Shown: positions 728 to 38,690 of the stretch, piece after piece
Layout of the letters: each line of letters begins with the position of its first letter
Numbering within the stretch: position 1 is the first letter of the stretch
NCBI GenBank assembly: GCA_029237735.1
Contig: JAQZBU010000001.1
Span: 1-64,000, forward strand
Direction: 5' to 3'
DNA: 64,000 nt
Source: Ramlibacter sp.
Lineage (GTDB): Bacteria; Pseudomonadota; Gammaproteobacteria; Burkholderiales; Burkholderiaceae_C
The notes under the pieces: generated by a model
Told to the model about the DNA's origin: nothing
Seen by the model: only the letters and a program-made list of their open reading frames with translations
The model's database searches: none
Position numbers and translations under genes: made by a program

Positions 728-997
728 TCAAGAGCCGGCCGGCGGCGCCTGCAGTCCTCTAGCGCCCGCACCTAGCGGAACGAGGCCCTGCGGGCATCCA
801 GCTGCCGTCTTCGCGTCCAAGCACTTCGCCATCTCGACCAGGCTATCGCCAAGGTCGGCGATCGCCTGGTCACGAGCTGCAACCGGCCCGTGCCAAATCA
901 CTACTGCAACAATCGCCCCGCCCACAACGGCACCGAGCACGGCGGACATCACCATGTGCACGATTAGAAAGTCTTTAGGCTGTTTGCTCATCGTCAT
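728..997 (-). CDS. small inner-membrane protein overlapping the integrase gene
   Basis: An 89-aa protein with one clear membrane segment at residues about 12-35 (VHMVMSAVLGAVVGGAIVAVVIW), then a soluble tail with two Cys. The ATG at 997 is preceded by AAGGGAG at good spacing, so translation starts inside the last codons of the recombinase gene (overlap of 23 nt), implying translational coupling. A longer frame reaching upstream to 1096 is only open because it lies inside the integrase gene. No known family recognised; a superinfection-exclusion or membrane-anchoring role would be a guess. Confidence 0.5.
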   Translation of the reverse strand: MTMSKQPKDFLIVHMVMSAVLGAVVGGAIVAVVIWHGPVAARDQAIADLGDSLVEMAKCLDAKTAAGCPQGLVPLGAGARGLQAPPAGS

Positions 998-2324: not shown

Positions 2325-2356
2325 TTTCTCACTCCCCCAGTCCGGTTCGACCCAAA

Positions 2357-2374
2357 TTGCGCGGACCCGCGCAA
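2357..2374. terminator. hairpin between the DUF3085-like gene and the integrase
   Basis: Perfect 7-bp arms TTGCGCG (2357-2363) and CGCGCAA (2368-2374) with a 4-nt loop, sitting just past the stop of the minus-strand gene at 2381-2893. On the minus strand it is followed by TTTG, a short T-run, so it is a plausible weak intrinsic terminator. Confidence 0.5.
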
Positions 2375-2380
2375 ACGCAA

Positions 2381-2893
2381 CTAGTGGAGGCCAACGGACG
2401 GCGAACTCGGTTGCTCCTGCTCCTCGTCAGGCCCCGGAAAGGTGAAGCCCATCGACAAACTGGTCTGGGTAACCGATACCTCCAGGAACTCAGCACCCTG
2501 CACTGCGGAATCGAGAATAGCCTGGGGCAATCCAAAGAGCGTGATCACTGTGTCGTCACCGCCCATGATCTCCCGAGCAGCCGAATACCAGTCATCAAAA
2601 TCCATGTTGTTCGGATCGCTTTCGCGGGCGTAGGTCACGCCAGGCGACGGCTCTCCAACACCCGCGCTCATCAGGTAGACGCCCTGGTCTTTGACGAGCA
2701 GCAAGGCGGGGCCAATCGTGGCCATGTCGATGTTCGCCTTGTCCGGCCACCCATCCACCTCTTTGACTTTCCCGCCTTTGTGGTGCTTCGGCTCGAACAG
2801 CACGTCGTAGCCAAAGGTTCGTTCGGGTGCCGCCATGGCGTGCTGAGCGAGCTTGACGACGGGCTCGATCGCGAATTTCAGTGTCTTTGCCAT
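2381..2893 (-). CDS. hypothetical protein resembling DUF3085
   Basis: 170 aa from the ATG at 2893, chosen because AGGAG lies 7 nt upstream; the frame is open further but without a better ribosome site. The opening TLKFAIEPVVKLAQHAMAAP and the central LLLVKDQGVYLMSAG resemble DUF3085 proteins, which are small proteins of unknown function found on proteobacterial plasmids. No catalytic motif or membrane segment is seen. It starts 20 nt downstream of the stop of the nrdJ fragment and may be read through from it. Assignment rests on memory of the family pattern. Confidence 0.5.
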   Translation of the reverse strand: MAKTLKFAIEPVVKLAQHAMAAPERTFGYDVLFEPKHHKGGKVKEVDGWPDKANIDMATIGPALLLVKDQGVYLMSAGVGEPSPGVTYARESDPNNMDFDDWYSAAREIMGGDDTVITLFGLPQAILDSAVQGAEFLEVSVTQTSLSMGFTFPGPDEEQEQPSSPSVGLH

Positions 2894-2912
2894 CCTGCTG
2901 CTCCTGCCGCAT

Positions 2913-4555
2913 TCACCCGCAACTGCCCAGGTGGCCGCATTGCGTGCAATAGTCACAGCCGTCCTTGCGGATCATCGCGTGGGCTCCGCACTCCGGGCAT
3001 TTGGAGCCGGCCAACGTGAGCGGCGGCCCACCTTCGACGCCTGTGGCGGCACTTCCACTATTGGCCTCATTGGCGCGCGAACCGTCGCTCGCGTCGATGC
3101 TCGCCGACGCCAGCGCCGTAGCACCATTGCGCTGTGCGATCAGGTTCTGAATGGAAAAGGCGATCGCAGCCACTTCCGAGTCGTGCCACATCGGCACCGA
3201 GGTTCCGTCGGCCTTCTGGTACGTCCCCAGGCGCACCGGACCCCGATCCCACGCGACCTTCCGCATGTCGCTCAGCGCCCGGTCCAGGAACCCTCCGCGG
3301 GCGGCCAATGACAGCAGTCGCATGCTGGCGGTGATCCACTCCTGCGACTCGCCACTTTGGCCGACGGGCATGAAGAATTCGACCGCCCGTTCGCGGCCGT
3401 CGGGCAGCGGAATGAACGACACGACCAGGTAGAGCGCCTGGCGGCCCTGTTGAGTCCAGTATTCGACCTTCTCCACCATGCCAGGCAATACGCCCTTCGG
3501 CCGTTTCGCGATAACGGAGCGCATCGGGTCCACCGGTTGCACCGCGTGCCTCTCGCGAGCGGCGTAGTCATCGATGGCCGCGTTGAGTTCGTTGACGGCG
3601 CGCATCGGGTCGACCTGGGGTGCTGCGGCCGGCTCCACGGATGCTGGCGCGGCCGCACCGGTGTCCAGCACCGACCCCAGGATCGGGTTGGGGCGGTAGG
3701 TGGCCATGCCCTTGAGGCCCGATTTCCACGCCTCGTGATACAGATGCTTGAAATCCTCGTAGGGGTAGTCCTCGGGAATGTTTACTGTCTTCGAAATGGC
3801 AGTGTCCACGTAGGGCTGCACCGCTTCCATCATTGCCAAGTGATCGGTCACGCTCATTTGCAGCGCCGACACGAAATACTCGGGTAGCCGCGTCATATCG
3901 CCGCCGAGCGCGCGGTACAGGCGCCAGGCATGGTCCTCGACGGCGTATTCGGTGGTGCTGCCGTCGGCCTCCCGCTTCTTGCGCCGATAGCTCCACGAGA
4001 ACGCGGGCTCGATACCGTTCGATGCATTGTCGGCAAAGGCGAGGCTCACCGTGCCCGTGGGAGCGATTGCGAGCAGGTGGCTGTTGCGGATACCGTGCGT
4101 GCGGATCGCCTGCTGGAGGGGCTCGCTCAGCCGGCTGGCGAAGGTACCTTCCTCCAAATACTGCTCGATGTTCAGTGCCGGGAACGCGCCCTTCTCCCGA
4201 GCGAGTTCCACCGAGGCGGAATAGGCTGCGTCGCGCATCCGTTCGGCGATTCTCCTCGCAAGCTCGCGGCCTTCGGGCCGGTCGTATCGCAGACGCAGCA
4301 TCGCCAGGGTATTGCCCAAGCCGGTGAACCCCACGCCGATGCGGCGCTTGGCCATGGCTTCCGCGCGCTGCTGGTCCAGCGGCCAGTGGGTAATCTCGAG
4401 GACGTTGTCCAGGGCGCGCACCTGCAGCGCCACGGCCTCCGCAAACGCGTCGAAGTTGAACTCGGGCTGGCCGCCGATGCCGAAAGGATTGGACACGAAC
4501 CGCGTCAGGATGACCGGGCCCAAGTCGCAGCACCCGTAGGCCGGCAGCGGCTCCT
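2913..4555 (-). pseudogene. nrdJ: 3' fragment of class II (B12-dependent) ribonucleotide reductase
   Basis: The frame reads as the C-terminal half of NrdJ: PLPAYGCCDLG...LTRFV, VGFTGLGN, APTGTVSLAFADNASNGIEP, the TSCPD-like domain (around KRPKGVLPGMVEKVEYWTQQ) and an intact C-terminal zinc ribbon (CPEC...CDYCTQCG). Class II enzymes need the catalytic N-x-C-x-E loop just upstream of PLPPYGCC. Here homology stops inside that loop (only CEEPLP remains) at the inverted-repeat junction near 4557, and the barrel half with the substrate and cobalamin sites is absent. An ATG at 4589 keeps a 558-codon frame open, but the extra codons belong to the neighbouring sequence. It is a truncated, presumably non-functional copy. 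Confidence 0.85.
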
Positions 4556-4579
4556 CGCAGGAGCCCCTCCCCGCCTTCG
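4535..4579. repeat. imperfect inverted repeat at a head-to-head gene-fragment junction
   Basis: Arms 4535-4555 and 4559-4579 match at 17 of 21 positions around a 3-nt centre; the innermost 7 bp (GGCTCCT/AGGAGCC) are perfect. The nrdJ fragment reads leftwards out of the repeat and the DUF4942-type fragment reads rightwards, and both encode EPLPA at their first residues. The site marks a DNA rearrangement that joined two 5'-truncated genes. Confidence 0.7.
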
Positions 4580-5853
4580 AAGAGGCCACCGTCCGTCAAA
4601 CCCTAACCGGTCTACTCGCCGCCCGCACCCAGTTTTTTGCCGAGCGCGTCGACGGCGTGTTTCGGGGCTTATCTGGTGAGCACGTCACGAACCGGCCCGA
4701 AGGCTTCGGCAAGCGGATGATCATCAGCTACGTCCTGAGCTTCGGCTCGGTGTCACACGACCGGGCGGGCTTGATCAACGACCTGCGATGCGTGATCGCC
4801 AAGTTCATGGGTCGCGACGAGCCCCGCCACCAGTCAATACAGCCGTTGCTGGCGCGAATGAATCAAAGCACGGGCGAATGGCATACCGTGGACGGGGGCG
4901 CGATGCGCATCCGCGTCTACAAGAAGGGCACCGCCCACCTTGAAGTGCATCCTGATATGGCCTGGCGCCTGAACCAGGTGCTCGCGCATCTGTATCCGCT
5001 GGCCATCCCGGCAGAATTTCGCGCGCGCCCCAAAAACCGCATCAAAGAGTTTACGCTGATGCAGCGGCCGCTGCCGTTCGCCGTGCTCGAAGTCCTTGGC
5101 ATGGTGGCCTATGGACATCGGCCAGGCAAGGTGTATTGCCTGTCGCACGATGCCCGCAAGAAGGGCAGGGCGTATGACGAAGCCTGCCATGTCCTGGAGC
5201 TGCTCGGCGGAGTGGCCACCGGTGCCGGCGAGTTCAGCTTCGACTATGTGCCCGACCCCGTGATCGACCAGGTGATGCTGACCGGCTGCGTGCCGGATCA
5301 GAAGAGCCATCAGTTCTATCCGACACGCGACTACCTGGGCGAGCTCGCGACCGAGCTCGCCGAGATCGGCCCGGAGGACACCGTGCTCGAACCGGAGGCC
5401 GGCCGAGGCGACCTTGCGAAGCGCCTTCCGCTCGATCAGACCACCTGCGTCGAGATCTCGTCGCTCCACTGCGAAATCCTGCGCGCCTGTGGCTTCACCA
5501 CCATCCAGGCCGACTTTCTCGAGTACGCGGTCAAAGCCCACGCTGCCGGCATCCGCTACAGCAGGGTGGTGATGAATCCGCCCTTTAGTGACGGCCGCGC
5601 GCAACTGCACGTCGAACACGCCAGCCAGCTGCTCGGGGCGGACGGGATCCTCGTGGCGATCCTGCCGGCAGGCATGCGCGGCAAGAACTTCCTACTTGGG
5701 TTCGAGCACGAATGGAGCCGGCTGCACGACAACGAGTTCGCTGGCACCACGGTCTCGGTCGTCCTGCTCAAGGCGAGGCGGGTGTTGCCTACGGACATCA
5801 GCCCCCTACACGATCGTCGACAGTCCAAGGGCCGCAAACCGCGGCAGTCCTAA
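4559..5853 (+). pseudogene. 5'-truncated DUF4942-type class I methyltransferase
   Basis: The frame is open from the junction at 4559 and reads FEEATVRQTLTGLLAARTQ then VFRGLSG...FGKRMIISYV, typical of the DUF4942 helical region. It continues into a SAM-dependent methyltransferase: VLEPEAGRGDLAKRLP as motif I and VVMNPPFS as motif IV (about 5568-5591), the NPPF type that goes with N6-adenine or protein/RNA amino-methylation. No start codon with a ribosome site is visible before a GTG at 4657, which would cut into the DUF4942 domain. The catalytic half is complete, so residual activity cannot be excluded, but the N-terminus is lost at the same point as that of nrdJ. These proteins are common on plasmids and phages. 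Confidence 0.7.
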
Positions 5854-8646: not shown

Positions 8647-9354
8647 ATGAAAGGCTTGCTCCAAGCCATCTTCGGGCCCAAGGACCCTCCCAAGCCCCCG
8701 GCAACGGTGTCGACCGATGCGCCGCCGATCGTGCCCGGCGAACCGGTCTCCTTTACGGGGGACGCGAATTACCTGCAGAACTCGGACATCCTGGACGGCC
8801 TTCGTTTCAACGCAACGCTGAAGGTCACCACTCCGCTTGCCGTTCTTCGCCGGCATGGAGAGAGATTCGATGGCCCGCCCAGCCAAGCCCCGGCGTACGG
8901 TGACATGTCGCAGGGCATCTGGATGGCCCAAACGACAACATGGAAGAGCATGGGGATCGATCTCCCGGAGTTTGGCGCTGTCAGCACGCACGCGTCCGAC
9001 GTTGGGCCGGTCAATCCTGATGACTATCTGCCTTTCCTGATCGAGTTTCGGACGATCTTCGAGAGCGAAGCCACCGACGAAATCAAGCTCGAACAGTTGG
9101 CCGAGCTGGGAAAGAAAGAACCGTACCGGGCCCACTGGAAGACCCTCCGCGCCAACCGCGATTTCCCCTTGTCGCTCTTTTTCTATCCGTTGTGCAAGCT
9201 CGATGGAGTTGGCAGGGTCACAGCTCGCAGCCTGTACGAGGCTGGGTTTCGTAGCAAGAGCCAAGTCCTCGCCAGCACACCGCAGGAGCTGTCTACCGTG
9301 CGCGGCATCGGCCTGGCCCTGGCAGCACGAATTCTGGCCACTAAGGCCGAATGA
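8647..9354 (+). CDS. helix-hairpin-helix protein
   Basis: 235 aa starting at the ATG at 8647, which overlaps the TGA of an upstream 18-codon frame (GTGATG). The C-terminus carries a helix-hairpin-helix pair: LCKLDGVGRVTARSLYEAG and LSTVRGIGLALAARIL (last about 50 residues), a non-sequence-specific DNA-binding element. The N-terminal 180 residues (proline-rich opening, then GIWMAQTTTWKSMGIDLP) match nothing I know. It follows the coiled-coil/nuclease-like gene on the same strand and probably works with it. No good Shine-Dalgarno is visible, so the exact start is uncertain. Confidence 0.55.
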   Translation: MKGLLQAIFGPKDPPKPPATVSTDAPPIVPGEPVSFTGDANYLQNSDILDGLRFNATLKVTTPLAVLRRHGERFDGPPSQAPAYGDMSQGIWMAQTTTWKSMGIDLPEFGAVSTHASDVGPVNPDDYLPFLIEFRTIFESEATDEIKLEQLAELGKKEPYRAHWKTLRANRDFPLSLFFYPLCKLDGVGRVTARSLYEAGFRSKSQVLASTPQELSTVRGIGLALAARILATKAE

Positions 9355-9366
9355 CCGCGATCGCCG

Positions 9367-9804
9367 CTACGGGACCCCGCCGGCGGCTGGCTCCAACCCC
9401 GCAATGACCTCGGGGGGCTGGTACGGCCCGCTTAGAAGGACCTGGTCCCAGTCCTGCTCGGGACGCTTGGAGCCGTCGTCCAGAAAGTGAATGACGTGGT
9501 GGCATGTGTCGCACACCGTGGCCAGCGCCTCATCCCGTTCACCCCGCATGACGTCTGCGTCATAGCTGCGGTGGTGGACCCTCAAGCCGCGACCGCCGCA
9601 ACGGCGGCACACCTTGTTGTCACGCTTCAGGACGCGGCGGGAGATTTTTTTCCAGAGTTTGGTCTGCAGGTACGCTGAGTAGTCATCAAGGAAAATCTCG
9701 TACGGATCCAGCGTGCCGGCGAGGCGCCTCGCCTCCTTGGCTTCGAGCTCCGCGCGCAGCTCGGCGAGTGTGGCCTGAATTTCTTCCTGGGTCGGTGCGT
9801 GCAT
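9367..9804 (-). CDS. HNH endonuclease
   Basis: 145 aa. A helical N-terminus (residues 5-30) precedes the HNH fold: CRRCG (66-70), the catalytic-strand VHHRSYD (76-82) and CDTCHHVIH (98-106). The two Cys pairs make the structural zinc site and His77/His78 plus His102/103/106 supply the beta-beta-alpha-metal residues. Size and layout fit small stand-alone HNH nucleases of phages and plasmids. It converges with the helix-hairpin-helix gene (12 bp apart). It might be a homing, packaging or restriction nuclease; the neighbourhood of DNA-modifying enzymes makes a restriction-related role possible. Confidence 0.75.
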   Translation of the reverse strand: MHAPTQEEIQATLAELRAELEAKEARRLAGTLDPYEIFLDDYSAYLQTKLWKKISRRVLKRDNKVCRRCGGRGLRVHHRSYDADVMRGERDEALATVCDTCHHVIHFLDDGSKRPEQDWDQVLLSGPYQPPEVIAGLEPAAGGVP

Positions 9805-9849
9805 GTCGTGAGAGGGCGGCTGAGGGGCTGCCCTGCGCATCGTGGTGCG

Positions 9850-10362
9850 ATGGATTTCACCACATCGGCGCGGTCGCCCGCTGCTACGCCGGCGCCGTTT
9901 GAAATTGCGGTTGGCGCCCGAGACAATATTTCGATGAACACCGCAGACCAAGCCCAATTTCGCAAGCACCAAGCTCGCGCGGCCGCGCCGGCCGTTGCAC
10001 CTTGCGCCGACTCGTGGCGGGGCGTGATCCCCGCCGACATTCCGTCCCTCGCGGGCACGGTGATCAAGCTGCAGGATGGAACCTACGATGTGGTGCGCGG
10101 CGCCTCTGAGGCGAATGGCATCCTGGGGGCGAGCGCGCGCCGCTTTAACCTCGAGGAGGTGGCGATCGCCGTAGGGGCGCCAGTCGATCATGGTACCGCC
10201 CACCAGTTTGCGCAGGCCCTGCGCCGCAGCGGCTACGCGGTGGCAATCTTCAGTCCGCAGGACCTGGGTGGCGTCGAGCCCGATCAAGTCGAAGAACGGC
10301 TCGTTGCCGAAGGCAACGCCATGATCGAGAGCTCGGCGTCACAGGAGCGGCCGCGGGGCTGA
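9850..10362 (+). CDS. hypothetical protein
   Basis: About 170 aa from the ATG at 9850; the internal ATG at 9934 is an equally possible start and neither has a clear ribosome site. The central part (WRGVIPADIPSLAGTVIKLQ, then SARRFNLEEVAIAVGAP...HQFAQALRRSGYAVAIF) looks like an ordered alpha/beta domain and codon bias is that of a real gene. Not recognised. It is divergent from the HNH gene and convergent with the mom-like gene. Confidence 0.4.
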   Translation: MDFTTSARSPAATPAPFEIAVGARDNISMNTADQAQFRKHQARAAAPAVAPCADSWRGVIPADIPSLAGTVIKLQDGTYDVVRGASEANGILGASARRFNLEEVAIAVGAPVDHGTAHQFAQALRRSGYAVAIFSPQDLGGVEPDQVEERLVAEGNAMIESSASQERPRG

Positions 10363-10388
10363 GGCGGATCGACCGGAGTGGGTTCCCA

Positions 10389-11180
10389 TCAGGCCCATTT
10401 CCAGATGAAGGCCAGGTTTCCGGGATGCCGCAGCGGGCGCAAAAAGCCCTCCCTTCGCAGCCGCGCGATCCAGTCGCGCGGCTCCTCGGCCAGGCACCGG
10501 GAGGATGCTCCTGCGTCGAGCAGCTGCCGCACCGCGTAGTCGTAGCCCTGCTCGCCGTTGCGGATCTTCGAGAGCGTGCGATCGGAGACGGACAGGCCAT
10601 TCGGCATTAGCAGGAGCGTCCGCGGCAGCGTGCGGCCGGCGTGCTGCGCGTTGTGCGATCGGTAGATCACACCGGTGTGGCTGCGCTTCACCTCATGCCC
10701 AGCCTGGTCGTAGCGCGCCACGGGATCGCAAAACGAAACGATCCCGTCGATGTCGAGCGCGGCACGCACCAGACGGAAGGCGCGTGCGAGAGCCCAGGAC
10801 TCGCCGTTTCCCGGCACGCTCTGGTCGAGGACGAAGCGGCCCAATTCAACACCCTTCGCCGGCGGTGTCCCCAGATATTTCGGAACGAGGCTCTGCGTCA
10901 TGGGCACCGAGAAAACCGCCACGCCCACCAGCTGCGGTTTATTGAATGCGCGGTGCTCGAACATGCCGGCCCGAAAGCGCGCGGCCGGATAACTGCGGCT
11001 GTAGTGGTGTTCCAGCACAAAGGCCTTCGCCCTGGATTGGTCTAACGGTTCGACGCTGTAGCGCTTGGTATCCAGGGGCTCGCCGGCGGGACGGTACCCG
11101 TGCCGCCGACCGTTCCAGCGCAAGCAGCGTTCGGTGATCGAAGCCGGCACTTCGCCAGTGTTCACGTTGAGGTTACGCAT
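10389..11180 (-). CDS. Mom-like DNA adenine modification enzyme
   Basis: 263 aa with the conserved pattern of the Mom family (GNAT-like fold, named for phage Mu Mom, which converts adenine in DNA to a carbamoylmethyl derivative and blocks restriction). Seen here: HHYSRSYPAARF (58-69), LVGVAVFSVP (84-93), VELGRFVLDQSVPGNGESW (111-129), VSFCDPVAR (148-156), VIYRSHNAQHAGR (171-183) and SDRTLSKIRNGEQG (199-212). It is the last gene of a minus-strand operon, starting 1 nt after the stop of the 96-aa gene (TGAGATG), so translation is coupled. Function in this host is inferred; the modified base and donor cannot be read from sequence. Confidence 0.75.
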   Translation of the reverse strand: MRNLNVNTGEVPASITERCLRWNGRRHGYRPAGEPLDTKRYSVEPLDQSRAKAFVLEHHYSRSYPAARFRAGMFEHRAFNKPQLVGVAVFSVPMTQSLVPKYLGTPPAKGVELGRFVLDQSVPGNGESWALARAFRLVRAALDIDGIVSFCDPVARYDQAGHEVKRSHTGVIYRSHNAQHAGRTLPRTLLLMPNGLSVSDRTLSKIRNGEQGYDYAVRQLLDAGASSRCLAEEPRDWIARLRREGFLRPLRHPGNLAFIWKWA

Positions 11181-11181
11181 C

Positions 11182-11472
11182 TCAGTCCTGGTCGACTGGA
11201 ATTTCGAGGAGCGCAGCTCGCGACGTCAGGCGCCATTTGCGCAACACCTGGTCCGCGTCAGGGACGCCGTTGCGGCGCGCCACGTTGTACCGCTTGCTGA
11301 CCGGATAGCCCACCAGCATGATGCGGGCGTACTGCCGGGCATCCTTTGGAATGAGCCTGGCGGCCTGACGAACCTCACCTTGCGTGCAGAACGAGCGTTG
11401 CGGCGCCCCCTCGTTAGGAGAGAGCACGTAACACTGTTCCAAGCGAGATGGTCTATCGATATTGGTTTCCAA
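11182..11472 (-). CDS. small operon protein of unknown function
   Basis: 96 aa using a TTG start at 11472, chosen because GGAG lies 6 nt upstream and the frame otherwise runs back into the transglycosylase gene. The protein is basic (ARLIPKDARQYARIMLVGYP, SKRYNVARRNG, LRKWRLTSRA) and may bind nucleic acid. No family recognised. It sits between the TGT-like and Mom-like genes with gaps of 17 and 1 nt, so it is almost certainly co-translated with them and may be an accessory of the modification system. Confidence 0.55.
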   Translation of the reverse strand: METNIDRPSRLEQCYVLSPNEGAPQRSFCTQGEVRQAARLIPKDARQYARIMLVGYPVSKRYNVARRNGVPDADQVLRKWRLTSRAALLEIPVDQD

Positions 11473-11489
11473 TGTGATCTCCAGTCTTC

Positions 11490-12638
11490 TCAGCAAGCTG
11501 GCGCCGGCGCCAGCGGCTCGTTGGGATGCAGATGGCCGACTTCGATAAGCGCGTCGCGAACAGCGGTGTAGACGATGCCCAGCCCGAAGTCGTCGGCCGG
11601 CTCCTCCTCCTCGAAGGCCTGCACGCCGTGCATGCGCAGCAGGACGTCCACCAGCCCGCCGTTTTCCAGCGTCAGCCACCTGACATCGGGATAGGAAAGG
11701 TCGTTCGACCCGAATAGGTCGCCAAGGGCTTGGCCAGCGGCCTCCAGTGCGACTTCCTGCGCGCTGCGCTCGCGCTCGATGTCGCTCAGCAGCGTGCGCT
11801 GCTCGCCGACCGGCTGCTGTCGTACTTGGTGCAGCAGCTGCACTTGGCGTGCGTGCCAACCTGCCATCGCCTCCGCCCGGATCGCCTGCGTCCGGCCGGT
11901 AGGCATCGTGCGGCGCACGGCGGCATCCCAGGCCATGCTGTCAACGGAGGCAACGCGGTGGGAGTAGGGCGCCAGCGCGGCGAGGGCGCCTGACTTGACT
12001 CCGAACAAGTGCAGCTGACTTTCGGCGGGCATCACCTGGTCCAGCGCGCGCACGATCGCCAGCACGCCGTCAGGCCCATGGATCTGGCGACGACACACCG
12101 AGCCCACGCCTACGACTGCAGGCCAGTGGCCACCGAACATCTCCTCGGCACAGCGGGCGTATTCATCTGCATACCAGCCTTGGATCACGCCGAGGATGGG
12201 GACCTTCACGCCGCGGCGCTCCGCGAGGTTGAGTGTGCGGAAATACATGGCGATCGTCGCATCGATGCGCAGCCGACGTACGGCCGCATCCGTGGCGACC
12301 TGGGGCTCGACGCAATAGTCCGGGGCTGCAGCCCAGGTCCAGCGACGGGCAGCGACGAGCTCCATGTACTGCTCCGGCGCCCAGCGATAGTCGCCGAACA
12401 TGACCGAGGCGGTGAAGCCCGCTGAGTCCAAGGCCGCATCGAGGGTATCCGGCAGCTCGCCAGCGGCGTCCAACTTGAACCCCAAGAACTCGCGGTTGCG
12501 GTCGATGCGCGCGAATGCGTTCGCCGAGAAGAGCAGGGGCAAGCCGGTGCTCAGCCCGAGCTGAAGCAGTTGCCCGCGCACGAGCGGCATGCCCACGCGA
12601 ATCGTGGGGTGCCAGGCCTGCAGGTCGCGCGCGCTCAT
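11490..12638 (-). CDS. TGT/DpdA-like base transglycosylase
   Basis: 382 aa with the layout of tRNA-guanine transglycosylases: LDSAGF (70-75, the TGT 'DSGGF' loop with the general base), PDYCVEP (106-112, cf. 'DEC'), GVIQGW (150-155, cf. 'GIVQGG'), VGVGSVCRR (176-184), LHLFGVK (209-215) and VDSMAWDAAVRR (232-243) carrying the candidate nucleophile Asp. The C-terminal Cys3-His zinc site of tRNA enzymes is not visible. That combination is what is known of DpdA-type and phage enzymes that insert 7-deazaguanines into DNA, so DNA is the inferred substrate. It starts with an ATGA overlap on the preceding gene. No preQ0 synthesis or amidotransferase gene is in the window, so the base would come from the host queuosine pathway. 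Confidence 0.7.
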   Translation of the reverse strand: MSARDLQAWHPTIRVGMPLVRGQLLQLGLSTGLPLLFSANAFARIDRNREFLGFKLDAAGELPDTLDAALDSAGFTASVMFGDYRWAPEQYMELVAARRWTWAAAPDYCVEPQVATDAAVRRLRIDATIAMYFRTLNLAERRGVKVPILGVIQGWYADEYARCAEEMFGGHWPAVVGVGSVCRRQIHGPDGVLAIVRALDQVMPAESQLHLFGVKSGALAALAPYSHRVASVDSMAWDAAVRRTMPTGRTQAIRAEAMAGWHARQVQLLHQVRQQPVGEQRTLLSDIERERSAQEVALEAAGQALGDLFGSNDLSYPDVRWLTLENGGLVDVLLRMHGVQAFEEEEPADDFGLGIVYTAVRDALIEVGHLHPNEPLAPAPAC

Positions 12639-12928
12639 GATGCGTCCCCGCTGCAGGTATCGAGCAGCCCGTCGGCATCGGTCCTGCCGTCCTCTTCGCC
12701 GAGCTCGGGCTGCGACAACCGCAGAATGCGCTTGTCCTCGGGAAGGGCTGCCCAGTACGTTTGGGCGAGATGCAGCCAGTCGGCCTCCGGGTCGATGCCG
12801 CTATCAGCGTCGATCACGTTCAGGAGCGCCTCGCGGTACCGCCGCGCCCATTCCAGCGGCATCGTTGAACCATCCGGCGTCCGAATCGCCTTCAGCATTT
12901 CGAGCCCCGAGGCGCGAGCGAGCTGCAC
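12635..12928 (-). CDS. small helical operon protein
   Basis: 97 aa with a GTG start at 12928 (GGAG 8 nt upstream); the ATG at 12898, which overlaps the methyltransferase stop as ATGCTGA, would give 87 aa. The sequence is helical and acidic at the end (LEWARRYREALLNVID, GEEDGRTDADGLLD). Not recognised. Overlaps at both ends (with the methyltransferase and, as ATGA, with the TGT-like gene) show it is a fixed part of this operon. Confidence 0.55.
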   Translation of the reverse strand: MQLARASGLEMLKAIRTPDGSTMPLEWARRYREALLNVIDADSGIDPEADWLHLAQTYWAALPEDKRILRLSQPELGEEDGRTDADGLLDTCSGDAS

Positions 12929-14520
12929 CCGGAGATCTCCGGGCAGATCGGCAGTTCGCGCAGCAGCGTGGTCGTGAGCGAGAAGTACCCGTTCTCCAGC
13001 CTCGGCGCCCGGGCACGGACCCAGGCCTCAGCCTCGGGTCGGAGGAGGGCGCGCTCCAACGTGTCCAGATCCATGGCGCCTGCCGAAACGATGCTGATAC
13101 CGTGGTCTAGCGGCAGGATGCCGGCCGGCACGCGCACCGGCCTGAGCGACGCAGCGATGCGCGGGATGAGCAGCGACGGCTTGCTGAGGTCCATGCGCTC
13201 GAAGCTCTCCGGCGGCCGCCAGCGCATCGTCGTGCGCTGCTTGGTGCGGGGCATGCGATCGAGGTTGGCCTCCAGGTGACGCATCACCGCCGCGGGCGGC
13301 ATGCGATCACGACTGGTGCGGATCGCGAACTTCGTCGGCGCGGTCAGCACCCCGCCGCGGATGTTGTCCGTATCGATAGCGGGAATCAGCAGGTCGGCGG
13401 CAATGCCAGCAGCGCATGCCGTGGCAGCGTCGATGACGAAGATTCCGTGTGGTCCCAGCCACGGCGCCAGCCGCGCCTGGGCCACATCGGCCAGCTTGCT
13501 CCAACCAATGAAGGCCGCATCGTCGGCCTCCGGGTAGATCGGTGCGCGGGTGAGGGCGCGTTCGCACAAGTGCGCCTCACACAACACGACCGCCACCGGA
13601 TGGATGCGCGGGGGCTGGCCAGCGCGTCGATTCTTCGGACGGTAAAACGCTGAGGTGCAGTCCAGGCGCTCCAGGTGATGGATCCCCATCCTGCGGCCGA
13701 TCACCTCGCGCAGCTGCGCCGCGCTTTGGGTAAAAAGCCAGCGGTCGGACGAGACGAGGGCGATCTCCCCACCAGGCCTCAACGTGGCAGTGCAGCGATC
13801 GATGAAGCTGTGCAGCATGTCACCCTGGCTGTAATCCGGCAGCTCCGCTTCGTATTCGGCGCGAAGGATCGCTGGCAAATTGGAATAGCGCAAAAAGGGT
13901 GGGTTGCCCGCGACGCAGTCCCATGTGGGCTCGCTCGGGGCTTCGGTCAGAAAGTCGCCGAGCACCACCATGCGCTGCACCAGGCGGGCGGCGGCTTCAA
14001 CTGTGCGCCCGTGGCGCGCCAGGATACGGGCCAGACGCTCCCGGGCCTCCGCGGCCGCGAAATAGTGGATCTCCCAGCCCTGAACACAGCGGGCGATCAA
14101 ATCGTCGCTGGCCGCCGGGTGGCGCTCGAGCAGCAGCTCGAGTGCGGCCCCGAGGAATGCGCCGTCGCCACAGCTGGAATCGACAAGGCGGCGACCCGCG
14201 GCCGGCCAATTGAGCATGGCCAGCAGCTGGTGGACCACCGGCTCGGCCGTATAGAAGGCAGTCGCCTCGTGCAGGCGCTCGATCGCGGCCGCGCGGTCAA
14301 TGACAAGTTCGGCTTGCGACATCAAGGACTTCTTCGATGGCGAACCAACCCGCTCGACGATGACCGTGACGCGCACTTGGTCAGGACGCTCCTCGCGATG
14401 CCGCCTCGAATACAACTCTCTGTTCATGGTCGGCAGGTCGTGGAGGCCGGCGTCGTTGACTAGCTCGGCCAGGACCTTGCTCAAGGGCAGGCTCGTGTAT
14501 GCAGTACGGGTGAATTTCAT
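12892..14520 (-). CDS. N6-adenine-type DNA methyltransferase (Eco57I-like)
   Basis: 542 aa from the ATG at 14520. Gamma-type motif order: FYTAEPVV (89-96, motif X region), LVDSSCGDGAFL (112-123, SAM-binding motif I) and AGNPPFLR (204-211, catalytic NPPF). The C-terminal 250 residues would hold target recognition. Proteins of this kind are type IIG/Eco57I-like adenine methyltransferases; there is no N-terminal nuclease domain here, only about 60 unassigned residues (TRTAYTSLPLSKVLAELV). It is the first gene of the modification operon. It could methylate DNA alone, or act as an orphan or partner of the transglycosylase and Mom-like enzyme. An amino-methylase acting on RNA or a modified base is an alternative. 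Confidence 0.7.
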   Translation of the reverse strand: MKFTRTAYTSLPLSKVLAELVNDAGLHDLPTMNRELYSRRHREERPDQVRVTVIVERVGSPSKKSLMSQAELVIDRAAAIERLHEATAFYTAEPVVHQLLAMLNWPAAGRRLVDSSCGDGAFLGAALELLLERHPAASDDLIARCVQGWEIHYFAAAEARERLARILARHGRTVEAAARLVQRMVVLGDFLTEAPSEPTWDCVAGNPPFLRYSNLPAILRAEYEAELPDYSQGDMLHSFIDRCTATLRPGGEIALVSSDRWLFTQSAAQLREVIGRRMGIHHLERLDCTSAFYRPKNRRAGQPPRIHPVAVVLCEAHLCERALTRAPIYPEADDAAFIGWSKLADVAQARLAPWLGPHGIFVIDAATACAAGIAADLLIPAIDTDNIRGGVLTAPTKFAIRTSRDRMPPAAVMRHLEANLDRMPRTKQRTTMRWRPPESFERMDLSKPSLLIPRIAASLRPVRVPAGILPLDHGISIVSAGAMDLDTLERALLRPEAEAWVRARAPRLENGYFSLTTTLLRELPICPEISGCSSLAPRGSKC

Positions 14521-14549
14521 CGGGTGCTTTCGTAGTCGGCCTGGGGGGC

Positions 14550-14586
14550 GCATACGGAAATTCGTACGGTAGGGAAATCCGTATGC
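14550..14586. promoter_or_regulatory. 9-bp inverted repeat upstream of the modification operon
   Basis: Perfect arms GCATACGGA (14550-14558) and TCCGTATGC (14578-14586), separated by 19 nt that contain a third TACGG copy (about 14564-14568). It ends 30 bp before the methyltransferase start, where an operator over the promoter is expected. No regulator gene is adjacent. The region from here to 14620 is AT-richer than its surroundings, as expected for a promoter. Confidence 0.5.
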
Positions 14587-14619
14587 AGAAATAGAAGAGT
14601 GGGATTTACAAGATCACAA

Positions 14620-14667
14620 GCAAAATCAATGATTTGCGTGCGAGGCGCCACCACCGGGAAGTGGCGC
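14620..14667. terminator. two hairpins after the zinc-ribbon gene
   Basis: One near-perfect stem, GCAAAATCA with TGATTTGC (14620-14637), and a second with perfect arms GCGCCAC (14645-14651) and GTGGCGC (14661-14667). Both lie past the stop of the minus-strand gene at 14713-14946 and before the modification operon promoter. They may separate the two transcription units, although no T-run follows. Confidence 0.35.
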
Positions 14668-14712
14668 GGGGCCGCTCATGCGGAGTTCCTTGCGCGACGT
14701 CTGCATGCGAAG

Positions 14713-14946
14713 TCATCGGCGAACCTCCGAGGTCGGAATCAGGCTCAGGTCGCGCACGCGCCACTTGTGGCCGCAGCCGGGGATTGAACATTTGGCTTCG
14801 GCGCGGACGGGGCAGGGCAGCGCCGCGAGGCCGGAGAAGACCACGCGGCCGTCTTCGACATCGACGTTGTGGCCTTCCTCGATCACGACGCCGAGCGTGT
14901 AGGTTGCGCCCTTGCACTTGGGGCAGCGAAGCGTGTTCTCAGCCAC
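14713..14946 (-). CDS. small zinc-ribbon-like protein
   Basis: 77 aa with a GTG start at 14946, fixed by GGGGGAGG 6 nt upstream; the start overlaps the preceding stop (GTGGCTGA). Two Cys sets, CPKC (near residue 8) and C...CSIPGCGHKW (near residues 45-58), fit a zinc ribbon. Between them is a beta-rich segment (GHNVDVEDGRVVFSG). Such ribbons are seen in transcription or DNA-binding accessories; no specific family recognised. Confidence 0.55.
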   Translation of the reverse strand: MAENTLRCPKCKGATYTLGVVIEEGHNVDVEDGRVVFSGLAALPCPVRAEAKCSIPGCGHKWRVRDLSLIPTSEVRR

Positions 14947-15292
14947 GGGTGACCTCCCCCATGCCATCCGGGATTGCTCGCGCCAGGTGCAGCGCATTCA
15001 CGCCGAGGGCTCGAATCTCCGTTGCGAACTCGCGGGCGATCCACGCGTTTCGGAAGTGGTAGCGGCTCATCGGCGGCTTGCTCTTATCCCAGCTCTTGTG
15101 CGCAGCACCGCTCCACTTCACAGCGAGGCGCCGCAGCGCCTGGCTCAGCGCCTTTGCGGCCGCCGGGTGCTCGACGGCCAAGTCGCGCATGATCGCGGCC
15201 ACTTCTTCGTCGCCTGCGATGGGGTTGCGCACCTCGGCTCTGTTGCTGCGAGCCGTCATTTGGAGCTCCAGCGGATCGCGTTGTTGGCCCAT
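14939..15292 (-). CDS. hypothetical helical protein
   Basis: 117 aa. Mostly helical (EEVAAIMRDLAVEHPAAAKAL...LRRLAVKW) with a basic, aromatic middle (HKSWDKSKPPMSRYHFRNAW). AGAGGAACACAGGA precedes the ATG. It overlaps the zinc-ribbon gene by 8 nt and follows the gene at 15359-15727, so the three form one minus-strand unit. Not recognised. Confidence 0.45.
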   Translation of the reverse strand: MGQQRDPLELQMTARSNRAEVRNPIAGDEEVAAIMRDLAVEHPAAAKALSQALRRLAVKWSGAAHKSWDKSKPPMSRYHFRNAWIAREFATEIRALGVNALHLARAIPDGMGEVTRG

Positions 15293-15358
15293 GGTCCTGT
15301 GTTCCTCTTGGGAATGAATTTGCCGAACTGATTTCGAGAATGCAAACGCGCGGCGAAC

Positions 15359-15727
15359 TCAGTCGGGCATGCGATGCGGCTGTGTCGCCGCTTCGTCACC
15401 ACTGCGCCCCAGGTAGGTGAGGGAAAACAGCAGGCCGGAGGGCGCGAACCAATGCGTGACGGCGCCGCCGGCGTCGGTGACGTAGCCGTACTGCGATGGC
15501 AAGTCGCGCGGGCCCACGCCTTCCTGGACCAGCAAGGTCTTGTCCTGTTGCAAGCGGCGGACGGCGGCCGTGCCATCGGTGCAGCGCACGAAGCTCTCGC
15601 GCATGTACAGGCGAACGCTGTTGGCCAGCGTCGCCGGCGCCACCGGCTTGTCGCCGATCCGGAAAAGGTGAACTCCATCGAGCGCCACGCCCTTGGCATT
15701 GGTGTACAGGTCGTCGGCTTTTGGCAT
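15359..15727 (-). CDS. hypothetical protein
   Basis: 122 aa with a good ribosome site (AAGGA) before its ATG. Mixed alpha/beta composition (FRIGDKPVAPATLANSVRLYM, QDKTLLVQEGVG, YVTDAGGAVTHWF); no family recognised. It is the first gene of a three-gene minus-strand unit that starts at the AT-rich divergent region 15728-15971. Confidence 0.45.
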   Translation of the reverse strand: MPKADDLYTNAKGVALDGVHLFRIGDKPVAPATLANSVRLYMRESFVRCTDGTAAVRRLQQDKTLLVQEGVGPRDLPSQYGYVTDAGGAVTHWFAPSGLLFSLTYLGRSGDEAATQPHRMPD

Positions 15728-15823
15728 GGGATTTTTCCTTTCGGCGCTGGGCCATATAGAACCATTTATCTACTGGATATTTTTATAGCAGCCGCCCTAC
15801 CGCTGAGCTTCGTTTTCTTGATA

Positions 15824-15877
15824 ATAACAGTTATCACGCAAACCACAAGTGCGAGTAATCATATTCCCTCGGAATAT
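15824..15877. promoter_or_regulatory. AT-rich divergent control region with two palindromes
   Basis: Between divergent genes at 15727 and 15972 lie ATAAC-A-GTTAT (15824-15834) and ATATTCC-CTC-GGAATAT (15861-15877), both perfect palindromes with 5- and 7-bp arms. The AT content is far above the surroundings. This is a likely two-way promoter with operators; exact -35/-10 boxes cannot be assigned with confidence. Confidence 0.45.
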
Positions 15878-15971
15878 CCGTGTTTCGTGCAACTCTGTAC
15901 TATCATGCACAACAAGGCCATGCCCCGCTCGTACTCGTGGTCGCGGCCCCAAAAGGAAGGGAAAACGGGCA

Positions 15972-16550
15972 ATGAGGGACGTAAATGAGGCTCCCCAGCA
16001 AGAAGCAGCCGCCTGGCTGCACGAAGACGGCTCGCGCTCGATCACGGCCGCTGAAAAGAAATCGATGCTGGAAAATCAGGGCGTGCCAGGGAAGCGCGTC
16101 GCCGCGCTATACAACATCCCGCTCGTGCGAGCCAAGGGCACGCCGCCGGCCGCGGCGCCCGACGTGGCACTGCCATCGACGCCTTTGCCAGTGGTGCGCC
16201 ACCCGCAGCTCGGCGAACTCTTCGACAGGTTCCAGCTCCACCAGTTCGCCGTGCGATACGCCGATCTGACCTGGGCGGCCGCGCAGAGCCCGGGGGGTGC
16301 GCGTGCGATCGTGTTCCAGCTAGGCGAAGGCCCTGAAGGCGTTCGAATTGAACTCGCGCGCCAAAAAGACGGAGCCGAGATGTGGGCGGTGCGCGACCGT
16401 GTCGGCAACTGCCTGCGCCTGGACGGCGACTGGGAGATCGAGCCGTCACCAAGCAGCAGGGACGGAGAGTTCCTGGGCCGCACTCGCTTCCCCGCGGTCG
16501 ACGGAGCGATCGCTGCGGCGGCCGCCGCAGTCGGGAGGACAGGCACATGA
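15972..16550 (+). CDS. hypothetical protein
   Basis: 192 aa from the ATG at 15972 (AAGGAAGGG upstream). The N-terminus (LHEDGSRSITAAEKKSMLEN...KRVAALYNIPLVRAKG) is helical; residues 90-175 look like a small beta-rich domain. No signal peptide or membrane segment. Not recognised. It reads towards the KfrA cluster and is followed by another small gene 82 bp on. Confidence 0.4.
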   Translation: MRDVNEAPQQEAAAWLHEDGSRSITAAEKKSMLENQGVPGKRVAALYNIPLVRAKGTPPAAAPDVALPSTPLPVVRHPQLGELFDRFQLHQFAVRYADLTWAAAQSPGGARAIVFQLGEGPEGVRIELARQKDGAEMWAVRDRVGNCLRLDGDWEIEPSPSSRDGEFLGRTRFPAVDGAIAAAAAAVGRTGT

Positions 16551-19975: not shown

Positions 19976-20688
19976 AGGCTCCCCAGAACCGATTCATGCC
20001 CGTCGACATCATCCATTCGGCTACCCGAAACACTAACGAGTGGCTCGCCCGCGAAGACGCCCGCTTGCTCGACTGCACTGTGGGGCTGCAATATCTCAGT
20101 GCACAGGATTTGGGTGACGAGATGTCGCGGGATCCACTCTTGGTGCTGCGCCGGATTCTCGAATCGGAAATCCCAGCGATGGTCGGGTTCGATGTGCCGC
20201 CGGGATCGGAGGAAGAGGCCGAATTCCTTGGCCTGGGGCTGTCTGGTGCACCACTGCCCCTCATCCTTCGCTGGTGCACTGCCACCGCCGACCAGGATGA
20301 TCGTCCCGAATGGGACGAGCTCGCGATGTACATGACAGAAGATCTGCGATCGACCACCGAGCTCGTGCGCCAGACGGGGCTGTGGCTCACGAGCGCCGGC
20401 CAGGTCGATTCGCTCAAGTTCCTCGCCGCGCAACCAGTAGACCTCGTGCGAGCGGCCGTTCAGAAGGTTCTCGATCACGTGGACGTGCCGACCCCGTGGG
20501 TCATCGAAAACGAACTGCGCGGGAACGGCCGTTCCGAACCGCCGGTCGACTGGCACGCGGTCTGCGCAACCGCCGCCCGGCGGCGCGGCCGCATTCGGTA
20601 CGGTGGGAAAAAGCGGCGACCCGCTGGGAAGCGGCGATCCGCGGAGACTCTGCCACGGGCGCGCCGCCGGTCCAACGCTCGTCGCTGA
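19954..20688 (+). CDS. hypothetical protein with basic tail
   Basis: 244 aa if started at the ATG at 19954 (or 230 aa from 19996, MPVDIIHSATRNTNEWL, which looks like a natural N-terminus). Helical, with DARLLDCTVGLQYLSAQDLGD and a helix-rich middle; the last 35 residues are strongly Arg/Lys-rich (KKRRPAGKRRSAETLPRARR), fitting nucleic-acid contact or a shifted 3' end. It forms a pair with the upstream gene. Not recognised. Confidence 0.45.
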   Translation: MFDAEHLKAPQNRFMPVDIIHSATRNTNEWLAREDARLLDCTVGLQYLSAQDLGDEMSRDPLLVLRRILESEIPAMVGFDVPPGSEEEAEFLGLGLSGAPLPLILRWCTATADQDDRPEWDELAMYMTEDLRSTTELVRQTGLWLTSAGQVDSLKFLAAQPVDLVRAAVQKVLDHVDVPTPWVIENELRGNGRSEPPVDWHAVCATAARRRGRIRYGGKKRRPAGKRRSAETLPRARRRSNARR

Positions 20689-22463
20689 CCGAGCCCCCGC
20701 TTCACGAAGGGCCTGCGTGCAGTTCCTGGCGAAGCAGCCTGGTGAGCATAATGATGAGCATGGAGAGGCCTTTTGTGGCCTAGCAGGAATGACGCCACAA
20801 GAATTCATTGCGAAGTGGGGACCCGGCGGACCTTCGTACGGCCTGAACGAGCGGCAGGGCGCCCAGCCGCACTTCATCGATTTGTGCGTCGTTCTTGGCG
20901 TGCCACCACCCGGCACGTCCGACGACTACGTGTTCGAGCAGGACACGTTTCTTCTTGGCCAGGCACGCGGCTTCGCCGATGTTTTCAAGCGCAACCACTT
21001 TGCCTGGGAGAACAAGGCGCCCGGAAAAAACCTCGACGTGGCGCTCAAGCAGCTTCTCGGCTACAGCCTGGCCCTCGGCAATCCACCCCTCCTCGTGGTG
21101 TGCGATCGACTGACAATCCGCATCCACACCCAGTTCAACGGACACCCCAGCGAAACTCACACGGTTCGGCTGGACCAGCTTGATCAGCCGGAGATGCAAG
21201 GGCTACTTCGCGCGCTGTGGCTGGATCCAGAGCGGTTTCGACCAAAGAGCACGACGCGAGACATCACGGAGGCAGCCGCACGCAGCTTTGCGACGCTGGC
21301 TGAACAGCTTCGCAAACGCGGCAACGACGCCGAGGAAGTGGCTCATTTTTTGACGCAGTGTCTGTTCTGCTTCTTTGCAGAAGACGTTGGGCTGCTTCCT
21401 GGCCGCATGTTCGAACGACTCGTAAATAACAGGAAATTGACCAGCGATGTGCTCACGAAGGGGTTGGGCGAGCTATTCAGAATCATGCGTGACGGCGGCC
21501 TATATGGTCCAGACGAGATTCCTTGGTTCAACGGCGGGCTATTTGCCAAGGTGAAGGTGCCGCCACTGCAGGTCCTCGATGTGACGGAGCTGCGCAATGC
21601 TGCAGGCCTGAACTGGAGCGCGATCGACGTCTCGATATTCGGAACCTTGTTCGAGCGGGGACTTGATCCGGCCAAACGTGCCCAGCTCGGCGCGCACTAC
21701 ACAGACCCGGGCACCATCCTCCGGCTTGTAGAGCCCGTAGTCGTTCGACCCATAACCCAGCGGTGGGAGCAGGAGCGAGAAGCAATTGCCGCGCGTCTCC
21801 GCAAACGAGACGAGCTGCGGGAGAAGGCCGAAACCATCCCTGACAAGGTCGCCTACGGCAGGATCCGGACGAGCGCGAACAGCGAGGAGCGAAAGGCGAA
21901 AGAATCGTTCATCCTGTTCTTGGAATCACTCGCCGCATACAAGATTCTGGACCCGGCATGCGGGAGCGGAAACTTCCTGTTCCTCAGCCTGAAAGTTCTC
22001 AAGGATCTGGAGCACCGCTGCCATCTCGAAGCAGCAGCCATGGGCCTGGACCGCCCGCAGGACCTGGTGTCCGGACCGCATAACGTACTGGGTATCGAAA
22101 TCAATGAGTACGCCGCGGAACTGGCCCGAGTGACGGTGTGGATTGGTGAACTGCAGTGGCGGCTCGCTCACGGCTACGACTTCAAGACCAACCCAGTGTT
22201 GGAGCCTCTCGACAATATCGAATGCCGGGACGCGCTGCTTTCACCGGCCGACACGCCAAGTGGCTACCAGGAGGCTGACTGGCCGATCGCCAACGTCGTC
22301 GTTGGCAACCCGCCATTCCTTGGTGACAAGAAGATGCGCAAAGAACTGCGACCCGTACACCGATGCGTTGCGGCAGGTGTACAAAGGACGCGTTCCGGGT
22401 GGCGCGGATCTCGTGACCTACTGGTTCGAGAAGTCGCGCGCGCAGATTGAGCAGCACGGCCTA

Positions 22464-23627
22464 GTGTAGTGTTTGAGTCTTGAGGGAACTTAATTGAACA
22501 GCTTGTCTCCAATGCTCTACTACGGTTTGTATTGGAGCGAGCAAGTGCGAGTTGCCCCGACGATTGAGTTGACGACAGAACAGGAGAGCGAGCTGACGCG
22601 GTTGGTGCGCTCCAAGCGCACCAGCGTCAGGCTGGCGCAGCGCGCGCACATCGTGCTGCTGGCCGCGCTGGGCATGCAGAACAAGGAGATCGGCGAGCAG
22701 TTGGGCATCGGGCGCGTGCAGGTCGCGCGCTGGCGCGAGCGCTATTTGCAAGCCGGGCTGGAAGGCATCGAGCGCGACTTGCCGCGTGGCGCACCGCCGG
22801 TGAAGGTGGACGTGGCCAAGCTGGTGGAGCTGACCACGCAAACTACACCCGAGGCTGCTACGCACTGGAGCACACGCAAGATGGGCGAGGTTCTGGGCGT
22901 CAGCGCCAGCACTGTCATGCGGCATTGGCAGGCGCACGGCCTGAAGCCTCACATCGTGCGCGGCTTCAAGGTTTCGCGCGACCCGAAGTTCGTTCAGAAG
23001 CTCGAGGACATCGTGGGGCTGTACATGTCCCCACCCGAGCATGCCTTGGTGTTGTGCTGCGACGAGAAGAGCCAAGTGCAGGCGCTGGACCGCACGCAGC
23101 CGGGCCTGCCGATGAAGAAGGGGCGCGCGGCCACCATGACACACGACTACAAGCGCAATGGCACCACCACGCTGTTCGCCGCGCTTAACGTGCTGGACGG
23201 CCAGGTCATCGGGCAGTGCCAACAGCACCACACACACGTCGAGTGGCTGAAGTTCCTGCGCCAGATCGACCGCGAAACGCCCAAGGACAAGACGCTGCAT
23301 CTGATCGCCGACAACTACGCCACGCACAAGCATCCCGTCGTACAGCAATGGCTTGCAAAGCACCCGCGATTTCACATGCACTTCACGCCGACCTCGGCGT
23401 CGTGGCTGAACATGGTGGAGCGCTTCTTCCGCGATCTGACCACCGAGCGGCTGCGCCGCGGCGTGTTCACCAGCGTGCCTGACCTGATCGCTGCCATCGA
23501 AGGGTACGTCGCTCATCACAACACCGATCCCAAACCGTTCATCTGGACCAAGAGCGCGCGCGACATCCTGCAAAAGGTGATTCGCGCCAACAATCGCTTA
23601 AGTTCCAAACAGAACGCAACACTACAC
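22464..23627 (+). mobile_element. IS630-family insertion sequence
   Basis: A 1164-bp element bounded by imperfect terminal inverted repeats (left GTGTAGTGTT...GGAACTTAA, right the complement) and flanked on both sides by TA (22462-22463 and 23628-23629), the IS630 target duplication. It contains one transposase gene. It sits inside the MmeI-like gene; joining the flanks at a single TA gives an uninterrupted reading frame. Confidence 0.85.
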
Positions 23628-23630
23628 TAG
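22545..23630 (+). CDS. tnp: IS630-family transposase
   Basis: 361 aa from the GTG at 22545 (GGAG upstream, and VRVAPTIELTTEQ is the usual start of this subgroup); a TTG at 22494 keeps the frame open earlier. N-terminal helix-turn-helix of the homeodomain-like type (NKEIGEQLGIGRVQVARWRERY, about 45-65), a second winged domain, and the DDE RNase H-like domain: VLCCDEKSQ (first Asp), LIADNYATHK (second Asp) and SASWLNMVERFF (Glu). The stop TAG is completed by the TA target repeat plus one base of flanking DNA. It appears intact and potentially active. Confidence 0.9.
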   Translation: MRVAPTIELTTEQESELTRLVRSKRTSVRLAQRAHIVLLAALGMQNKEIGEQLGIGRVQVARWRERYLQAGLEGIERDLPRGAPPVKVDVAKLVELTTQTTPEAATHWSTRKMGEVLGVSASTVMRHWQAHGLKPHIVRGFKVSRDPKFVQKLEDIVGLYMSPPEHALVLCCDEKSQVQALDRTQPGLPMKKGRAATMTHDYKRNGTTTLFAALNVLDGQVIGQCQQHHTHVEWLKFLRQIDRETPKDKTLHLIADNYATHKHPVVQQWLAKHPRFHMHFTPTSASWLNMVERFFRDLTTERLRRGVFTSVPDLIAAIEGYVAHHNTDPKPFIWTKSARDILQKVIRANNRLSSKQNATLH

Positions 23631-25747: not shown

Positions 25748-25756
25748 GCGGACGCG

Positions 25757-27103: not shown

Positions 27104-27241
27104 GGACGTTCAGGCACTCGGGCACTCGGCACGATCGTGCGCAGGCCCCGACCTACAAATGGAGCGAGCGGCCGCGCACTTATCATCCGGATCAGTAGGT
27201 GGGCGCATCCAGGTGCCCGGCGCACAGGCGGGAGGATTCTT

Positions 27242-38611: not shown

Positions 38612-38690
38612 GGGAGTCCGTCGGCGAGTTTGGCGGCAAGCCTAGCACGGCGGGATCGCCGCCCCGCCAGGGGTCGGCCGCGCCCCGGGG

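Follow-up and report, generated by a model that had tools for sequence, protein, structure and literature searches.

A stretch of 64,000 nucleotides (nt) from Ramlibacter sp. (assembly GCA_029237735.1, contig JAQZBU010000001.1, positions 1 to 64,000 of the forward strand; hereafter, the window) carries a five-gene operon on its minus strand. The operon combines relatives of two enzymes that are known to alter the DNA of phages: DpdA, which swaps guanines, and Mom, which decorates adenines. Its other products are a DNA adenine methylase and two small proteins (Table 1). The enzymes of the operon are of known DNA-modification kinds; the new part is the recurrent pairing of DpdA with Mom on plasmids. 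We found no publication treating DpdA and Mom together, only separate mentions, in a search that did not extend to preprints and may have missed a published mention.

A five-gene DNA-modification operon

The operon occupies positions 10389-14520, with the five frames as first described. The intergenic spacings in operon order are -37, -4, +17 and +1 nt, which bears out the preliminary description of five closely spaced minus-strand genes that overlap or have gaps of at most 17 nt. In all five frames, GC content is higher at the third codon position (0.72-0.82) than at the second (0.46-0.51), a coding pattern. Long open frames alone are no proof of coding, since in 20 mononucleotide shuffles of the stretch, at the same GC content, frames free of stops reached 403 codons. 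Three of the five operon proteins score above the cut-offs of curated Pfam families, so the operon is not a chance finding, and the arrangement is confirmed as real. For both small-protein frames, the evidence consists of spacing and codon pattern.

An inverted repeat just upstream of the methylase start is a candidate operator of the operon. On the minus strand, a promoter and terminator scan of 10150-14760 came back empty, without a sigma-70-like promoter match, and no non-coding RNA exceeded its gathering score within 9000-16000.

Table 1. Features of the operon and of two related plasmid loci
Feature	Positions	Strand	Basis
Eco57I/N6-type DNA adenine methylase, 542 aa	12892-14520	-	Pfam, PADLOC
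Small protein 1, 97 aa, GTG start	12635-12928	-	Open frame and codon pattern
DpdA-like transglycosylase, 382 aa	11490-12638	-	PF23859, AlphaFold2 model and Foldseek, conserved residues
Small protein 2 (P0002), 96 aa, TTG start	11182-11472	-	Open frame and codon pattern
Mom-like GNAT-fold DNA-modification enzyme (P0001), 263 aa	10389-11180	-	PF25680, PHROG, profile, fold
Inverted repeat (candidate operator), two 18-nt arms, 78% complementary	14550-14586	.	Just upstream of methylase start
Region with a VUT transporter gene directly upstream of DpdA, L175	6288-7744
Region with a VUT transporter gene directly upstream of DpdA, L176	5417-7290

Enzymes and small proteins of the operon

By Pfam, the transglycosylase, first described as TGT/DpdA-like, belongs to the DpdA family and not to the tRNA-guanine transglycosylases (TGTs). 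It scores 72.1 bits with the Pfam DpdA model PF23859 (cut-off 27) and 18.7 bits with the Pfam tRNA TGT model, under the cut-off of 26.3, and on these models a tRNA TGT identity was rejected. Thus, the protein is not placed firmly among tRNA enzymes by Pfam, but its fold is about equally near both groups and does not tell them apart. The AlphaFold2 model (mean confidence, pLDDT, 93.0) has a predicted TGT-type fold, and its lowest Foldseek E-value is to the solved DpdA structure 7ui4 (9.5e-7; template modeling (TM) score 0.44, root-mean-square deviation 25). The catalytic aspartates D71 and D233 are kept in 63/63 aligned DpdA rows, as is Q153, and D107 is kept in 62/63; we take these four positions to be those with which TGT holds guanine and attacks the sugar. 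The window protein is without the zinc-site cysteines, a pattern that an actinobacterial/phage DpdA branch shows in 5 of its 12 rows. In six DpdAs of the actinobacterial branch (L127, L174, L175, L177, L178 and L181), one cysteine of this pattern appears by eye to be a glutamate, and four of these six proteins are closely paired with Mom.

The product of the last gene is a Mom relative, as had been proposed, and its family, profile and fold all agree on this. It scores 71.5 bits with the Pfam Mom family PF25680 (cut-off 27.1) and 92.3 bits with the PHROG Mom-like family, and its family profile matches the sequence of Mu Mom (8bv8) with an E-value of 1.4e-13. The predicted structure (pLDDT 92.3) has both chains of the same entry, an S124A mutant, as top fold matches (8bv8_A, E = 3.5e-11; 8bv8_B, E = 1.0e-9), with 20% identity in the structural alignment. 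Its conserved positions are H59-Y60, N125, E127, D152 and Y173, and the HY, N.E, D and Y positions align with 8bv8.

The adenine-type methyltransferase of the preliminary description was likewise recovered, with both Pfam models exceeded (Eco57I, 39.2 bits, cut-off 25.3; N6_Mtase, 26.4 bits, cut-off 20.4) and 106.8 bits with the PADLOC Type II methyltransferase model. The protein contains NPPF, which we take to be the methylase motif, and SSCGDGAFL, presumably the S-adenosylmethionine motif. Its frame has a further ATG at 14553.

The frame of small protein 1 shares 37 nt with that of the methylase and 4 nt with that of DpdA. Small protein 2 stops 1 nt ahead of mom, and translational coupling of the two is possible. 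Neither small protein matched a family model above threshold, a search of the plasmid collection at E 0.1 gave no relative of either, and no convincing one was seen across 173 loci; a match to small protein 2 in locus L035 was weak (E = 0.04) and was discounted. The idea of two fixed small partners therefore did not hold up. A Com-like identity of small protein 2 was ruled out by its having only two cysteines and no family match.

DpdA and Mom recur together

DpdA relatives were found in 112 plasmid records and 397 phage records (390 of them from mycobacteriophages), Mom relatives in 89 plasmid and 24 phage records, and methylase relatives in 59 plasmid records. Among the matches listed, which comprised 94 plasmid records for DpdA and 71 for Mom, 30 records were common to both. 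For the methylase, 30 rows were listed, of which the 18 strongest were kept and 12 weak ones dropped; among the 18, a DpdA match was listed for 6, a Mom match for 8 and both for 5. Flanking genes were inspected at the best 80 of 281 genome loci and the best 80 of 149 viral loci of DpdA, some with short flanks, and at 80 viral Mom loci.

DpdA and Mom share genomes beyond chance, also within relaxase carriers. In 298 genomes from the family of a Sphingobium (G022, the genome of locus L035), DpdA occurred in 20, Mom in 14 and both in 9, against 0.94 expected (Fisher p = 6e-9). As a control for plasmid carriage, the 97 carriers of a TrwC relaxase were counted by hand, giving 17 with DpdA, 13 with Mom and 9 with both (p = 8.6e-6). 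Mom matches, one of them weak, were present in 24 of 50 DpdA-holding genomes. The order of the window's genome, that genome itself excluded, was set aside as a second sample, because the genes there are too rare to weigh (n = 398; DpdA in 3, Mom in 2, both in 1, on two contigs).

The pair is also linked physically, and it recurs independently of the window's small genes and element. DpdA and Mom are 309 nt apart in the window, with a small gene in between. In two actinobacterial plasmids (L174 and L181), their frames overlap by 4 nt. The gap in the sphingomonad branch is 12 nt in L009 and about 11 nt in L269 (G022) and L270 (G105) if Mom starts at the second listed start. Other gaps measure 117 nt (L177), 140 nt (L178) and roughly 0.45 kb (L094), and in L204 the two genes stand in the opposite order, 82 nt apart. 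More adjacent pairs were located by coordinates, e.g., in S. nojiriensis, NBC_01454 and NBC_01775.

Quick trees were built from 63 DpdA rows and from 98 Mom rows, the latter after removal of rows shorter than 200 aa or with an E-value above 1e-35. In the DpdA tree, Mom adjacency, labeled by hand, falls at five separate places and takes at least 5 changes; in the Mom tree, DpdA adjacency takes 5 changes, or 7 if any DpdA in the flank is counted. These counts cannot separate gain from loss, branch support is by SH-aLRT only and is weak for many branches, and loci holding pairs were favored when the rows were chosen.

The exact five-gene set was absent from the other loci examined, and the operon was rejected as a conserved unit. 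In the search for co-occurrence of the five genes, the DpdA-Mom linkage recurred, but the whole set was not found elsewhere. In a Piscinibacter locus (L008), all three enzyme genes lie in a span of about 8.5 kb in a different arrangement, and L015 has DpdA and the methylase. PAPS-reductase-family genes, which may encode a further partner, are present on three plasmids: they adjoin mom in L008 (2802-6889) and L180 (4886-6007), and in L181, such a gene (576-1706) lies some 5 kb ahead of mom.

DpdA, Mom and the methylase might also be separate anti-restriction genes that accumulate on large plasmids with no functional coupling. At least three plasmids with all three genes (from Azospira, Sphingosinicella and Erythrobacter) carry them tens of kb apart, the window holds several defense genes in addition to an operon unseen elsewhere, and common cargo of one plasmid lineage could explain part of the enrichment. 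However, DpdA and Mom are repeatedly adjacent, their order is mostly the same, their frames overlap in two plasmids, and the enrichment survives restriction to relaxase carriers. We consider an absence of coupling quite unlikely.

A DpdA fusion protein and neighboring genes

On viral contig L103 (7890-10721), a single 943-aa protein has a DpdA-like N-terminal part with an XF1762-family GNAT domain behind it (140.6 bits, cut-off 50). Profiles of XF1762 and Mom align with an hhalign value of 94.6% and a pairwise E-value of 6.4e-8, which suggests distant relatives; the window's Mom-like protein itself scores 19.8 bits with the XF1762 model, under the cut-off of 50. Separate XF1762 genes lie 170 nt before DpdA in L099 and some kb from it in L028, L029 and L030. 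When viral sequences were scanned again for close relatives of the fusion, only L103 itself came up, and no paper on XF1762 was found in the literature searched.

Because of this fusion and the overlapping frames, a reading remains in which one base is altered in two steps. DpdA would install an amine-bearing 7-deazaguanine (e.g., preQ1), and the Mom-like GNAT would decorate the amine to give an undescribed base; substrates of GNAT-fold enzymes are usually amines. The close spacing of DpdA and Mom (about 11-12 nt) at three sphingomonad-branch loci and the XF1762 gene of L099 also fit this scheme. It is opposed by the viral Mom loci, 77/80 of which have no DpdA in their flanks, by the paired Moms, which do not form one clade (5 changes), and by the occurrence of the fusion on one contig only. 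The scheme is possible but unlikely. Equally tentative is its general form, in which DpdA and a Mom-superfamily GNAT (Mom or XF1762) would be a modular machine of two enzymes that acts on the DNA of plasmids and phages, the GNAT decorating the 7-deazaguanine installed by DpdA to give an undescribed hypermodified base and the L103 fusion being the single-chain version.

Other neighbors relate to the supply of 7-deazaguanines. A gene for a VUT queuosine-precursor transporter lies directly upstream of DpdA on Embleya and Nocardia plasmids, and at the Embleya locus a Mom match is found about 4 kb beyond the transporter and DpdA. Of 17 plasmid records tested for VUT, 2 carried it, and it was absent from the 4 closely paired actinobacterial records. 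In addition, QueC, a preQ0 enzyme, is encoded in the bin that contains the window. The DpdA of L176 has an extra C-terminal part with weak helix-turn-helix matches.

Proposed function

The analysis shows the order of the genes, the families and overall folds of the enzymes, the conservation of their active-site residues and the recurrent DpdA-Mom linkage. We infer that the substrate is DNA, which chemical products are formed, that DpdA and Mom act on different bases, and that the role is anti-restriction. The operon would be a DNA-modification shield of a large plasmid or similar mobile element, in which guanine and adenine are marked separately by independent enzymes; we assign this reading a probability of about one half. 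The DpdA-like enzyme would cut guanine from the DNA strand and insert a 7-deazaguanine, most likely preQ0, probably made by the host. The Mom-like enzyme would add a small group to adenines and the methylase further adenine marks. Acting independently, these enzymes would jointly protect the DNA from restriction enzymes that recognize G or A.

The 7-deazaguanine swap appears most likely because the guanine-pocket residues are kept, QueC is encoded in the bin and VUT genes are neighbors of DpdA. Adenine is the most likely target of Mom because paired Moms fall at five places in the tree and nearly all viral Mom loci inspected are free of DpdA. Since these five places lie among unpaired Moms, pairing needs no special type of Mom, which favors separate bases. 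Between two bases and one base in two steps, we lean to two bases.

Several observations weigh against the shield. The DpdA-Mom pairing is optional: among the best 80 genome DpdA loci, none has an adjacent Mom and 9 have Mom within about 8 kb; L094 and L127 are the 2 loci with a nearby Mom among the 80 viral loci of DpdA; DpdA occurs at 3/80 viral Mom loci, one of which (L183) is the same contig as L094; and two mycobacteriophage DpdA loci examined had no Mom within 5 kb. The plasmid records are not independent samples. Two Mom clades, sphingomonad and actinobacterial, are nearly all DpdA-linked, which could mean a specialization of these clades, although their rows were drawn from DpdA loci. 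As for the enzyme itself, several tRNA TGTs are structurally nearer to the DpdA-like model than 7ui4 is (TM 0.47-0.52 vs 0.44), its score with the NCBIfam DpdA equivalog NF041059 is only 35.6 bits (cut-off 200), and the zinc-site cysteine pattern is found in 0/51 rows outside the actinobacterial/phage branch, the window protein included. The supply of preQ0 is a further point: the bin encoding QueC is 8% contaminated, so QueC may not be that of the element's host, and DpdA relatives are present in actinobacteria, whose preQ0 supply is doubtful. Finally, phage Orion has DpdA only and no preQ0 source, and its DNA is without 7-deazaguanine (PMC6884629).

The Orion finding keeps alive a reading in which the DpdA-like enzyme uses no 7-deazaguanine, another base being swapped in or another purine targeted. 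The scarcity of VUT and the lost zinc-site pattern agree with such a substrate, but the putative guanine-pocket residues D107 and Q153 are kept nearly throughout the family, VUT genes adjoin DpdA in two plasmids and QueC is present in the bin. We regard a different substrate as the least likely of the readings considered.

Comparison with known systems

The phage DpdA 7-deazaguanine systems (9g, CAjan and Rosebush; PMC6884629) share with the window the DpdA family and the conserved active-site residues. The CAjan cluster has yhhQ (PMC10002423); likewise, DpdA relatives described here adjoin a preQ0-type transporter. Unlike these phage systems, the window operon contains no folE, queD, queE or queC, its DpdA is without the zinc-site pattern, and this DpdA is paired with Mom on a plasmid-like element.

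The com-mom operon of phage Mu, which serves adenine carbamoylmethylation, shares with the window the Mom family, fold and conserved positions, and a small frame ends just before mom in the window too. In contrast to Mu, this small protein has no recognizable Com zinc finger, DpdA and the methylase share the operon, and identity between the Mom proteins is low. In bacterial Dpd islands, DpdA occurs with further Dpd proteins and restriction. The likeness is a DpdA relative in bacterial DNA, but the window protein is weak to the island DpdA models (24.8 bits with PADLOC, besides the NCBIfam score), and no companion Dpd protein was named among the window's Pfam-scanned open reading frames (ORFs) or the eight window proteins run through PADLOC. 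Like Eco57I-type plasmid adenine methylases, the window methylase has no nuclease gene alongside it in the operon; unlike them, it shares its operon with two base-modifying enzymes.

DpdA and Mom are known from phages as separate devices. If the shield reading is true, their recurrent pairing on plasmids would mean that mobile elements use chemistry to mask two types of DNA base at the same time, which would help large plasmids spread past restriction. The recurrent pairing supplies named, clonable gene pairs for the discovery of modified bases.

The element and its other genes

The window lies in a 5.75-Mb bin of 253 contigs that is 94% complete, and because this bin is fragmented and contaminated, the true host is uncertain. 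KfrA, a topoisomerase and a 2100-aa strawberry-notch helicase protein, the last with relatives on 296 plasmid records, suggest a plasmid or related element. The preliminary description spoke of a conjugative element, which is unproven: a Pfam scan of 29 different ORFs elsewhere in the window found no relaxase or type IV secretion system family, and the whole bin, which is incomplete, gave no TraG/VirD4 coupling protein. The backbone genes that were recognized are of plasmid type only.

Several other genes of the window are related to restriction and defense. At 20603-24889, a type IIG (MmeI-like) restriction-methylase gene is apparently split by a DDE_3 transposase gene (22494-23630), with the N-terminal, helicase and methylase parts at 20603-22450 and the target-recognition part at 23684-24889. 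A DUF7669/NucS_C gene, a gene for AbiJ N-terminal domain 3 and a gene for a 1028-aa ATPase follow one another at 24929-30223 and are likely a defense cluster. Two Mrr-type restriction endonuclease genes are located on opposite strands at 37248-41998. At 975-4589, the minus strand encodes a phage-type integrase, and upstream of the integrase gene lies a 558-aa frame containing a ribonucleotide reductase barrel domain. The region 4657-5853 encodes a DUF4942 protein with a methylase-like C-terminal part, and in Burkholderia contaminans (L010) a DUF4942 gene likewise comes after mom.

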